NCBI RefSeq assembly: GCF_008039575.1
Contig: NZ_VDUY01000002.1
Coordinates: forward strand, 310,001-374,000
Source of the DNA: Zeimonas arvi
Lineage (GTDB): Bacteria > Pseudomonadota > Gammaproteobacteria > Burkholderiales > Burkholderiaceae_E
Direction: 5' to 3'
Length of the DNA stretch: 64,000 nucleotides
Shown: piece after piece, positions 40,118-56,700 of the stretch
Layout of the letters: the number at the start of each line of letters is the position of its first letter
How positions within the stretch are numbered: the stretch's first letter is position 1
The notes under the pieces: model-generated
What the model was told of the DNA's origin: nothing
Database searches by the model: none
The model's input: only the letters and a program-made list of their open reading frames with translations
Position numbers and translations under genes: made by a program

Positions 40118-41383
<1,266 letters not shown>

Positions 41384-41402: not shown

Positions 41403-41610
41403 GCCCGCTGCGCGGTGCGGCGCCGATCGGGCGGCAAGCCCGGTCCCCGCTGCGCGGGGATCGGGCTTCGCCCGCCCTCTCCGATCTCGGATTTCCGCGC
41501 CCGCCTCGCAGGAGGCTTCGCCCCCCGGCGAGCGGGCGCCCGCGGAAATCCTTTCGGTCGCTCGCGGCTCGGCCAAAGTCGCCCGATCGGCGCCGCACCG
41601 CGCAGCGGGC
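41403..41610. repeat. 208-bp palindromic element with 31-bp perfect terminal inverted repeats
   Basis: The 269-bp spacer between the acyl-CoA dehydrogenase and GST genes is mostly one element. Its ends, 41403-41433 and 41580-41610, are perfect reverse complements over 31 bp. Inside are AAGCCCG-CCCCGC / GCGGGG-CGGGCTT (41436-41468, with a symmetric 2-base internal loop), CCGA/TCGG (41481-41490), and an 11-bp stem GGATTTCCGCG/CGCGGAAATCC (41489-41499 and 41541-41551). The hairpins could fold as a branched structure closed by the long stem. No open reading frame of convincing composition and no target-site duplication are visible. Confidence 0.75.
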
Positions 41611-52978: not shown

Positions 52979-53063
52979 TGGTGCGGCCGATAGGACTCGA
53001 ACCTACACGCCTTGCAGCGCCAGGACCTAAACCTGGTGCGTCTACCAATTCCGCCACGGCCGC
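52979..53063 (-). tRNA. tRNA-Leu (TAG)
   Basis: An 85-base class II tRNA with encoded CCA. The acceptor stem is GCGGCCG/CGGCCGC, the anticodon TAG lies at 53027-53029 in loop TTTAGGT, there is a long variable arm, and the T-loop is GGTTCGAGTCC. It precedes tig with no terminator between them. Confidence 0.98.
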
Positions 53064-53082: not shown

Positions 53083-53132
53083 AACGAAAGGGCGCTGCGG
53101 GCCTTTTTGCCTGCCCGCTCTTCGGGGAGGGC

Positions 53133-53286
53133 GGCGGCGAGGGGCGGTGCGGTTTCCGGGAACGACGACGCGGCGCACTTCGTGCGCTGCCCGCCCCTCC
53201 TTCGGCAGCGGCCGCCGCCCCGGTGGCCCTTCCTCGTCGGGTCGGCGCGTCCTAAGTTCCCGGAAACCGCACCACCCTTCGCCGCC
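53133..53286 (-). repeat. Structured repeat element, copy A
   Basis: Noncoding element between tRNA-Leu and the RND genes, read here on the minus strand. The closing stem pairs 53256-53286 with 53133-53163: 29 of 31 positions complement, including 18 perfect pairs (GGTGCGGTTTCCGGGAAC and its complement). Inside is an 88-bp core (53164-53251) shared with copy B in inverted orientation. The core can fold into a short GACGCG/CGCGTC stem enclosing three hairpins with loops GGG, GAAGGAGGGG-CG and GAA. Most of its differences from copy B are paired substitutions. No function is known to me. Confidence 0.8.
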
Positions 53287-53565
53287 GGGCACCGTCGTCA
53301 CGGTCGCGGGCAGGCAAGATTGCCCTTCACTGACGGCTGGAGGAAACACCTGCGGAAACTCGGCGCGAACGGCGACCCCATGTACCAATCGCCCCATGGC
53401 CCCATGGCCCTTTCGCCTGATGCCCTCATCGCGTCTCGGAATGGCGGCTTCATGTTCTCGCACACAATGCCGGTGACCACCCACCGCACCGTCGCCAGCG
53501 AACCCCGTTCCGCGAGAGCCTGTCCCGCCTGGGCGCACGCAGCAAGGTGGCCACGAGGCGGTGTC
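53287..53565. other. Segment between the two structured elements, no supported gene
   Basis: About 280 bp bounded by copies A and B, slightly less GC-rich than its surroundings. It contains a tandem CCCCATGG-type repeat near 53390-53410. On the minus strand a 63-codon frame (53298-53489) includes NMKPPFRDAMRASGERAMGP, but I recognise no family and see no ribosome site, so I do not call a gene. With the two elements this accounts for most of the 677-bp gap between tRNA-Leu and the RND gene. Confidence 0.4.
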
Positions 53566-53700
53566 GGGTGTCCCGGAGGTCGGGTGCTTACGACGCGCCG
53601 ACCCGACGAGGAAGGGCCGCGTGGGACGCGGCCGCTTCCGAAGGAGGGGAGGGAAGCGCGCGAAGCGCGCCGCGTCGTCCCACCCGATGCCGGGGCACCC
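53566..53700 (+). repeat. Structured repeat element, copy B
   Basis: Second copy, on the plus strand. The closing stem pairs GGGTGTCCCGG...TCGGGTG (53566-53586) with CACCCGA...CCGGGGCACCC (53681-53700): 17 Watson-Crick pairs plus one G-T. The 88-bp core spans 53592-53679 and by hand alignment matches copy A at 78 positions without gaps. Stems in the core: 53592-53597/53671-53676; 53615-53622/53626-53633; 53634-53639/53652-53657; 53658-53661/53665-53668. A CTTA follows the 5' arm; copy A has TTA at the same junction. Both closing stems pair although their sequences differ. Confidence 0.8.
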
Positions 53701-53740
53701 TACCGCCTCGCGCGCCCAAGCAGCCGGGCCCCAGGCCGAA

Positions 53741-56700
53741 TCAGGCGGCAGCGGCCTTGATGCGGAACCAGGTCACGTACAGCGCCGGCACGAACAGGAT
53801 CGTCAGCACCGTCGCGAAGATCAGCCCGCCCATGATCGAGAAGGCCATCGGGCCCCACAGCACGTCGCGCGACAGCGGGATCATGGCCAGCACCGCGGCG
53901 GCGGCGGTCAGGCTGATCGGACGGAAGCGCCGCACGGTGGATTCGCGCACCGCTTCCCAGGGCGCGATGTCGGCCTCGATGTCCTGGCGGATCTGGTCGA
54001 CCAGGATCACCGTGTTGCGCATGATCATGCCGGCCAGCGCGATCGCGCCCAGTGTGGCAACGAAGCCGAAGGGACGATCGAAGACGAGCAGCGCGGCGGC
54101 GATGCCGATCACGCCCAGCGGCGCGGTGACCAGCACCATGAAGGCCAGCGAGAAGCTGCGCAGCTGGATCATCAGCAGGCCCATCATCACCGCCAGCATC
54201 ATCGGCACGCCGGCGGCGATCGCGGCCTGCGCGAGCGCGTTGTCCTCGCCCGGTCCGCCGAGCTCGATCCGGTACCCGGGAGGCAGTTCGGCGCGGATCG
54301 GGGCCAGCAAGGGATCGATCCGGGCGGCCACGTCGGGGGCCTGGACGCCTTCCACGATGTCGGCCCTGACCGTGATCACCGGCGTGCGGCTGCGCCGCCA
54401 GATGATCGGCTCCTCCATGACCTCGGCGATCGTCGCGACCTGCGAAAGCGGCACCGAGCGGCCGAAGGCCGTCTGCACCTGCAGGTTGGCGAGACCGGCC
54501 AGCGAGGCGCGCTCGCCGGGCGGGGCGCGCAGCACCACGTCGATCAGCTGGTCGTCTTCCCGATACTGGCCGATCGTGGCACCGGACAGCGAGGCGCCCA
54601 GCGAGCGCACGACCTGGGCCGAGTTGAGCCCGATCGCCCGCGCCTTGTCCTGGTCCACCGCGATGCGCACCGCCGGCGAGCGCTCGCCCCAGTCGGCATG
54701 CGAGTCGATCGTCTGCGGATCCGAACGCACCACTTCCGCGACGCGCGCGGCGATCGCCTTCAGCCGGGCGGGATCGTCGCCCAGCACCCGGAACTGCACC
54801 GGATACGCGACCGGCGGGCCGAGCGGCGTGCGGAACGCGCGGGCGCGCACGCCGGGGAAGCGCTCGTCGAGCGCCTCGCGGATGCGCGGCAGCGCCCGGT
54901 CGCGGCCTTCCACGTCGTGGGTCAGGATCACGAACTGCGCGAAGTTGGGCCGGAACAGCTGCTGGTCCAGCGACAGGTAGTAGCGCGGCGAGCCGTTGCC
55001 CACATAGGCCACGTAGGTCGCGATGTCCGGGTCTTCGGCGAGCAGCGCCTCGAGGCGCTTCGCCTCGGCCTCGGTGGCGCGGTAGCTCGCGCCCTCGGGC
55101 AGCCACATCTCGACCAGGATCTCGGTGCGGTTCGAGGTCGGGAAGAACTGCTTCTCGGTCAGGCCCATGCCGACGACGCCCAGCGCGAAGGCCAGCACGG
55201 TGGCCGCGATCGTCGTCCACCGGTGCCGCATGCACCAGTCGATCAACGCGCGCAGCCGCCGGTAGAAGCGGGTGTCGAACACTTCGTGATGGCCGCCGCG
55301 TTCCTTCAGCAGCCAGTTGCCGAGAAAGGGCGTGACCGTGACCGCCGCCACCCAGGAGATCAGCAGCGCGATCGTGACCACCGCGAAGATGCTGAAGGTG
55401 TACTCGCCGGTCATCGACTTGGCCGTCGCGATCGGCAGGAAGCCGGCCGCGGTCACCAGCGTGCCGGTGAGCATCGGGAAGGCGGTGCTGGTGTAGGCGA
55501 AGGTGGCCGCCGAGAAACGGTCCAGCCCCTCCTCGATCTTGCGCGACATCATCTCGATCGCGATCATCGCGTCGTCGACCAGCAGGCCGAGCGCGATGAC
55601 CAGCGCGCCGGTCGACACCCGGTGCAGGTCGATGCCGAACCAGGCCATCGCCACGAAGGTGCCGGCCAGCACCAGCGGGATGGTCAGCGCGACCACGCTG
55701 CCGGCGCGCAGGCCCAGGCTCAGGAAGCTGACCGCGAGCACGATCGCCACCGCCTCGGCCAGCACCGTCATGAAGAGGCCCACCGCGCTGCGCACGATCT
55801 TCGGCTGGTCCGACACCTTGGCGAACTCGATGCCCACAGGCAGGTCGCCCTTCAGCCGCTCCATCGTGTCCTCGAGCGCGCGGCCCAGCGCGATCACGTC
55901 GCCGCGCGGCGCCATCGACACGCCCAGGCCGATCGCCTGACGGCCGCCGAAGCGCATCGTGTAGACGGGCGGATCGACGTAGCCGCGGAAGACGCGCGCC
56001 ACGTCGCCCAGCCGGATCTGGCGGCCGTCTATCGCGAGCCGCAACGACTCGATCTCGCGCACCGTGTCGAACTGCCCGGTGACCCGCATCGGCACCGCCC
56101 TGCTCTCGCCCTGCACCGTGCCGGCCGGCGCGACCAGGTTCTGCGCCTGCAGCTCCGAGGCGATGCGCTGCGGATCGATGCCCAGCGTGGCCAGCGTGCG
56201 CGGCGAGATCTCGATGAAGACCCGCTGGTCCTGCACGCCGAACAGCTCGATCTTCTGCACGTCGCGGATGCGCAGCAGCTCCTGGCGCACGTCCTCGACC
56301 GCGCGGCGCAGTTCCTCGTGATTGAAGCCGTCGCCGGTGAAGGCGTAGATCGTGCCGAAGACGTCGCCGAACTCGTCGTTGAAGAAGGGTCCGACGACTT
56401 CCTGCGGCAGCGTCGCGCGGATGTCGCCGACCTTCTTTCGCACCTGGTACCAGATCTGCGGCACTTCCTTCGCCGGGGCGATGTCCTGCAGCTCGAGCAC
56501 GATCAGCGACTCGCCGGGCCGCGAGTAGCTCTTCGTCCACTTGAAGTGCGGCGTCTCCTGCAGCTTGCGCTCGAGCCGGTCGGTGATCAGTTCGTCGACC
56601 TGCTCGGTGGTGGCGCCGGGCCAGATGGTGCGGATCACCATGGCCCGGAAGGTGAAGTCGGGATCCTCGCTCTGGCCCAGCCGCAGGTAGGCGAGCGTGC

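Follow-up and report, generated by a model that had tools for sequence, protein, structure and literature searches.

Organization of the locus

The DNA analysed here (the window) is a stretch of 64,000 nucleotides from the genome of Zeimonas arvi (contig NZ_VDUY01000002.1, positions 310,001 to 374,000). When the window was scanned for long inverted repeats, a pair of elements, A and B, came out as the top inverted repeat, and besides this pair only one further palindrome was returned (Table 1); five shuffled windows gave no inverted repeat scoring 20 or more. Element A adjoins a tRNA-Leu gene, and element B is located downstream of an ORF for an RND efflux protein and antisense to it. Modelled as single-stranded DNA, A and B each fold better than all 200 shuffled sequences. 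The third palindrome lies 20 bp past the stop codon at 41383 of an acyl-CoA dehydrogenase-like ORF.

Table 1. Features of the A/B locus and the third palindrome, in window positions
Feature	Position	Strand	Evidence or remark
Palindromic element, 31-bp perfect arms	41403..41610	-	Window inverted-repeat scan; sister-species ortholog
tRNA-Leu gene adjoining A	52982..53063	-	Synteny the same in sister species
Element A, whole palindrome (outer arm P0 of ~32 bp plus core)	53132..53287	-	Palindrome scan; fold z -6.84
Core of A	53164..53251	-	Ortholog C in sister species
Spacer between elements A and B	53288..53553	.	Comparison of pairs
Element B, whole palindrome	53554..53710	+	Fold z -6.83
Core of B	53592..53679	+	Ortholog D
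B, helix P1, 5' arm GACGCG (partner CGCGTC, 53671-53676)	53592..53597	+	Alignment
B, left purine-rich strand GACCCGACGA (opposite 53640-53653)	53600..53609	+	Sequence
B, hairpin P2 (GGAAG.../...CTTCC)	53610..53639	+	Alignment
B, right purine-rich strand GAAGGAGGGGAGGG	53640..53653	+	Alignment
B, hairpin P3, C(GAA)G triloop	53656..53670	+	Alignment
End of RND efflux ORF (stop codon), ~30 bp from B	53741..53743	-	ORF list

Homologues and copy number

Blastn against the window's own genome (G000) returned A and B only. Both copies recur in the sister species (G003; copies C and D), inverted in the same way and flanked by the RND gene and tRNA-Leu; one copy is found at the same place in G015, and one in a genome of another genus (G062). 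A covariance model of six sequences, A to F, extended the matches to Derxia lacustris (G038) and Derxia gummosa (G028). A second model, built from ten Derxia elements, gave 43 matches in Derxia gummosa and 37 in Derxia lacustris, 20 in the sister species, 9 further ones in the own genome and a few elsewhere; within the order, 8 of 250 genomes had matches. The matches in the own and sister genomes include further classes with different P2 arms.

Palindrome scans give element spans of about 110–330 bp, mostly 200–230, and branched folds. A 400-kb part of the own genome, taken without selection, contained 14 long-loop palindrome sites, several of them merged pairs, and extrapolation suggests more than 100 such sites in this genome; 63 kb of G018, a short contig and hence a small control, contained none. 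Copy numbers are lower bounds because palindromes probably break assemblies. Several elements were seen at contig ends (L059, L062, L141, L155, L164, L182, L183).

Beyond these genomes, one internal loop, TGTYTGA/GAGTT, recurs. One narrow 21-base form of it matched 13 of the 397 genomes sampled from the phylum, and the loop occurs in other Gammaproteobacteria, often in inverted pairs, where the elements that carry it have predicted folds of the same architecture. GGGTCGCC and a T-rich hairpin (e.g. TACTTTCTTTTGGCGAAGCAAAAGAAAGTA) come after the element in many of these bacteria. Matches to CCGAGCGCACGAGGAAG in many families are coding-like. Endomicrobium loci that matched the right-hand motif were discarded, as they belong to a different palindromic repeat, CATTGCG...GCAATC, in which the motif is part of a different structure; one Endomicrobium MAG contains many such repeats, with CTGCCGAAGGCAGCGAGGGTA in common. 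Viral contigs gave no match to one narrow element motif; one related element had no match in phages and few, partial and mostly unannotated matches in plasmids. Cargo of phages or plasmids was rejected on these searches, made with that one motif and that one element.

The sequence-only reading had proposed the pair as its best candidate for an undescribed system. A comparison with Rfam agrees in so far as no family matches the elements and only the tRNA passes the gathering threshold. What did not hold is their isolation as a two-copy system, since they belong to a multicopy family of extragenic palindromes.

Fold, modules and covariation

The cores of A and B align without gaps over 88 bp and are identical at 78 positions, exactly as that reading had it, coordinates included. 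They differ at core positions 28, 30, 31, 35, 36, 46, 59, 63, 69 and 75. Three of the exchanged pairs it listed were recovered (30:36, C-G to G-C; 31:35, G-C to T-A; 69:75, A-T to G-C), pair 28:38 is indeed A.C in copy A and G-C in copy B, and position 59 is unpaired. Conversely, the second hairpin (GCTTCC:GGGAAGC, with pair 46:63) is kept in A, B and C only and broken in D, E and F. We therefore rejected it as a conserved helix; in B to F the partner of the CTTCC strand is instead an upstream GGAAG. One of the four hairpin exchanges that had been offered in support of the fold, 46:63, thus falls outside the conserved fold. The segments described as conserved and unpaired lie opposite one another; in the alignment they make up an internal loop that is rich in purines and includes tandem G.A pairs. 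Across A to F this loop contains a covarying step, C-C:G-G or G-C:G-C, of which the left strand of B has the former in place of the latter in D and F. The loop equivalent to the P3 triloop of B is GAA, GCA or GTCA in the six sequences.

The common plan consists of a long outer stem P0, helix P1, a junction of opposed purine-rich strands, P2 as a hairpin or branched arm, and hairpin P3. In the Derxia elements P2 bears extra hairpins, and one of them (L061, ~3001) has two extra hairpins inserted within the right purine-rich strand. Covariation was found at each level of sampling. The small independent set A to F, on which the A/B fold is based, has double changes in 12 of 35 pairs. For the ten Derxia elements, aligned simply with MAFFT, both partners changed in 32 of 61 pairs, and the covariation score is 0.381, as compared to 0.121 when shuffled. 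For 51 Derxia elements, aligned by fitting to the covariance model and hence biased towards it, 49 of the 59 modelled pairs changed on both sides, 96.3% of cells are paired, and 625 cells carry double changes (shuffled mean 176, slid controls at most 89). The changes among homologues in related genomes therefore keep the stems, and the selection on folding argued for from the two copies is strongly supported by the covariation.

Exchanges between G-C and A-T occurred in the 51 elements with almost no G.T intermediates; columns 83:114, for example, hold 28 GC, 23 AT and 0 GT. The missing intermediates fit either templating from arm to arm at the DNA level or a strict rejection of mismatches.

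Internal loops recur as modules. The TGTYTGA/GAGTT loop is the most widespread (102 of 112 distinct elements) and is absent from A and B; the CCGAGC/GCGAGGG junction was counted in 38 of the 112 by a strict pattern, and the ACGAG/CGAAGGNAG loop, which changes strand from class to class, in 20. From these common modules we infer that all classes are homologous, although their likeness may be due to convergence. Two own-genome palindromes of a different make-up (L200, 2774-3103 and 4811-5092) have GTCGCTCCCCGATACTCGCTTGGT in common, at the outer arm in one and at the centre in the other.

Conservation at orthologous sites

Three palindrome sites were found in a 200-kb part of the own genome, and each has a syntenic site in the sister species. 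The cores are 92% (B/D) and 90% (A/C) identical, as compared to 70% and 68% in the flanks, and the centre of another own-genome element, e2, is 95% identical to its counterpart. Overall, three of four elements have a core or centre identity of 90–95% versus 63–70% for flanks; in the fourth, the third palindrome of the window, both are high (93% and 88%). The outer arms evolve faster than the core and have diverged yet still pair, and their sequences differ between most copies. Spacers between paired elements are mostly unrelated and unconserved; those of Derxia pairs (L062, L063, L136) contain short tandem repeats of ~6 bp (CAGTCG, CTCGCA). Given the syntenic sites and conserved cores, vertical inheritance appears to be the best reading.

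Two alternatives bear on these data. Ends or remnants of mobile elements (MITE, REPIN, or single-strand transposition of the IS200/IS605 type) would account for multiple palindromic copies in inverted pairs, for contig breaks at copies and for the single-strand DNA signature described below. This reading was already weakened by the orthologous positions retained, the outer arms that differ among most copies and the mostly unrelated spacers; moreover, the Y1 transposase (PF01797) was not found in seven carrier genomes (G000, G003, G015, G028, G031, G038, G062). We consider it quite improbable, and a RAYT/REPIN system was rejected on the missing Y1 transposase. The second alternative is a mutational by-product, in which template switching perfects imperfect palindromes and selection plays no part. 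Double changes do far outnumber single changes, and the arms outpace the core. Still, such a process leaves unexplained why cores are better conserved than flanks, why unpaired loops are conserved, and why the elements have a polarity relative to stop codons (see below). It is contradicted for the core, may perhaps apply to the outer arms, and as a full account is the least probable of the explanations weighed here.

Placement at gene ends

With gene calls from a GC3 heuristic, the 3' side of the element faces the 3' end of a gene in 88 of 109 cases, 66 of which lie within 80 nt of the match end, and no such closeness to gene ends exists on the 5' side. Relative to the adjacent upstream gene, the element strand is thus the antisense one; with one element per convergent gene, the outcome is a head-to-head inverted pair. 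Element B and the third palindrome fit this placement, whereas A is an exception and faces the 5' end of the tRNA gene rather than a gene 3' end.

DNA or RNA form

Only 98 of 5899 cells of the core (1.7%) are G.T, as compared to 13 of 175 in tRNA stems, a small control of 8 tRNAs. On the element strand G.T exceeds A.C in the core (98 versus 63, p 0.007) and in the arms (46 versus 26, p 0.02), which identifies the element strand as the better-folding one. Triloops are predominantly of the GNA type (144 of 209, of which 142 are C(GNA)G, with 7 of the mirror type TNC), some of these loops being counted in matches of a model with its own preference for GCA loops. A class-agnostic check found C(GNA)G-type triloops in 15 of 22 cases inside palindromes and 25 of 169 outside. 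GNA and GNNA loops form exceptionally stable DNA mini-hairpins (PMC4686876). The sequence-only reading had left a choice between an RNA and a DNA fold; low wobble and strand-specific GNA triloops favour folded DNA, without proving it.

The same data bear on two RNA-level explanations. The element strand might be a structured RNA, with promoters in the spacer giving rise to two outward antisense small RNAs, or an antisense 3' regulator. The excess of G.T over A.C and the conserved purine-rich loops on this strand are in line with such a role, as is the orientation of paired elements, whose 5' ends face the common spacer, and strong selection could likewise hold wobble low. Nevertheless, we judge it unlikely in view of the very low wobble, DNA-stable GNA triloops in place of RNA tetraloops, unconserved spacers and the lack of an Rfam family. 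Somewhat less improbable, if doubtful, is that the units work at the mRNA level, forming 3' UTR hairpins that terminate transcription or block exonucleases, a role proposed for REP elements. The elements stand directly past stop codons, and transcription has been argued for REPs so placed (PMC3733652). Against this, the mRNA would carry the complement, in which A.C of the element strand becomes G.U and is the rarer class, the loops would be TNC, and the Derxia elements inspected show no run of T beyond the palindrome when read in the direction of the mRNA (uncounted).

Proposed explanation

Starting from the observed fold and covariation, the placement and polarity, the multicopy state and the conservation at orthologous sites, we lean towards A and B being large, modular, REP/BIME-like extragenic palindromes that form DNA structure at the 3' ends of genes. 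The unit would comprise 150–250 nt, with a long copy-specific outer stem and a branched core with purine-rich internal loops and C(GNA)G-closed hairpins, positioned shortly after a stop codon, its folded strand being the antisense strand of that gene. Its functional form would be folded DNA, as a hairpin on one strand or a cruciform, and the stem arms may stay complementary partly by one arm templating the repair of the other. The weakest step is the cellular task, which is conjecture: as a structural boundary at the 3' end of a gene, the element would limit read-through or the spread of supercoiling from one gene to its neighbour, probably by way of a protein bound to the conserved loops. More tentatively still, the elements could represent a widespread superfamily of structured DNA with RNA-like intricacy, built from reusable loops and GNA triloops on one strand, read by a factor and maintained by arm-templated stems. 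The interpretation from the two copies is partly supported.

If this proposal is right, many large branched DNA folds would stand at gene ends in part of the Gammaproteobacteria (including the former beta class), missed by annotation because stem sequences diverge while pairing holds. They would provide natural test objects for structure conservation at the DNA level, for template-driven maintenance of palindromes and for the role of REP-like elements at convergent gene ends. The covariance models allow searching for these families.

Comparison with known systems

No description of such elements was found in the open-access literature. With the structured RNAs of Rfam they share three-way junctions and covariation as in large ncRNA, and differ in low wobble and DNA-type triloops. 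The attC sites of integrons are recognised by structure as a folded bottom strand, lie directly past a stop codon and have stems variable in sequence, all of which resembles the present elements. Still, these are dispersed among chromosomal genes, the boxes GTTRRRY and RYYYAAC occur at 0 and 2 of 91 element bases, and no integron integrase exceeded the cut-off in G000, G003, G028 or G038, with a partial match in Derxia. attC was rejected on the missing boxes and the lack of an integrase over the cut-off in the own genome. An intact integron integrase was seen only in the sister genome G015 (contig C97; 434 bits). The TIR families of TIRYT transposases (PMC3733652) are likewise long, sometimes self-complementary, arranged as dimers and of moderate number, but are bound to Y1 transposases, absent here.

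The closest likeness is to REP and BIME, which are also extragenic, palindromic and multicopy (PMC3733652, PMC2817692, PMC1525189). REP elements occupy gene ends and the intervals that separate convergent genes (PMC3733652, PMC1525189), and the present elements share with them the position at gene 3' ends and in convergent regions, the pairs in opposite orientation and the complementary changes. A REP, however, is a single hairpin of 20–40 bp, up to 65, tagged by GTAG or CGTC and in many cases accompanied by a RAYT, whereas the elements described here are multibranched with several conserved internal loops. GTAG does occur within helix P2 of the Derxia elements, where it is paired. No RAYT was found in the carrier genomes examined, which sets the elements apart from the GTAG class; CGTC REPs are likewise without one (PMC3733652). 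As a working position, we file the elements as REP-like and outside the described REP classes.
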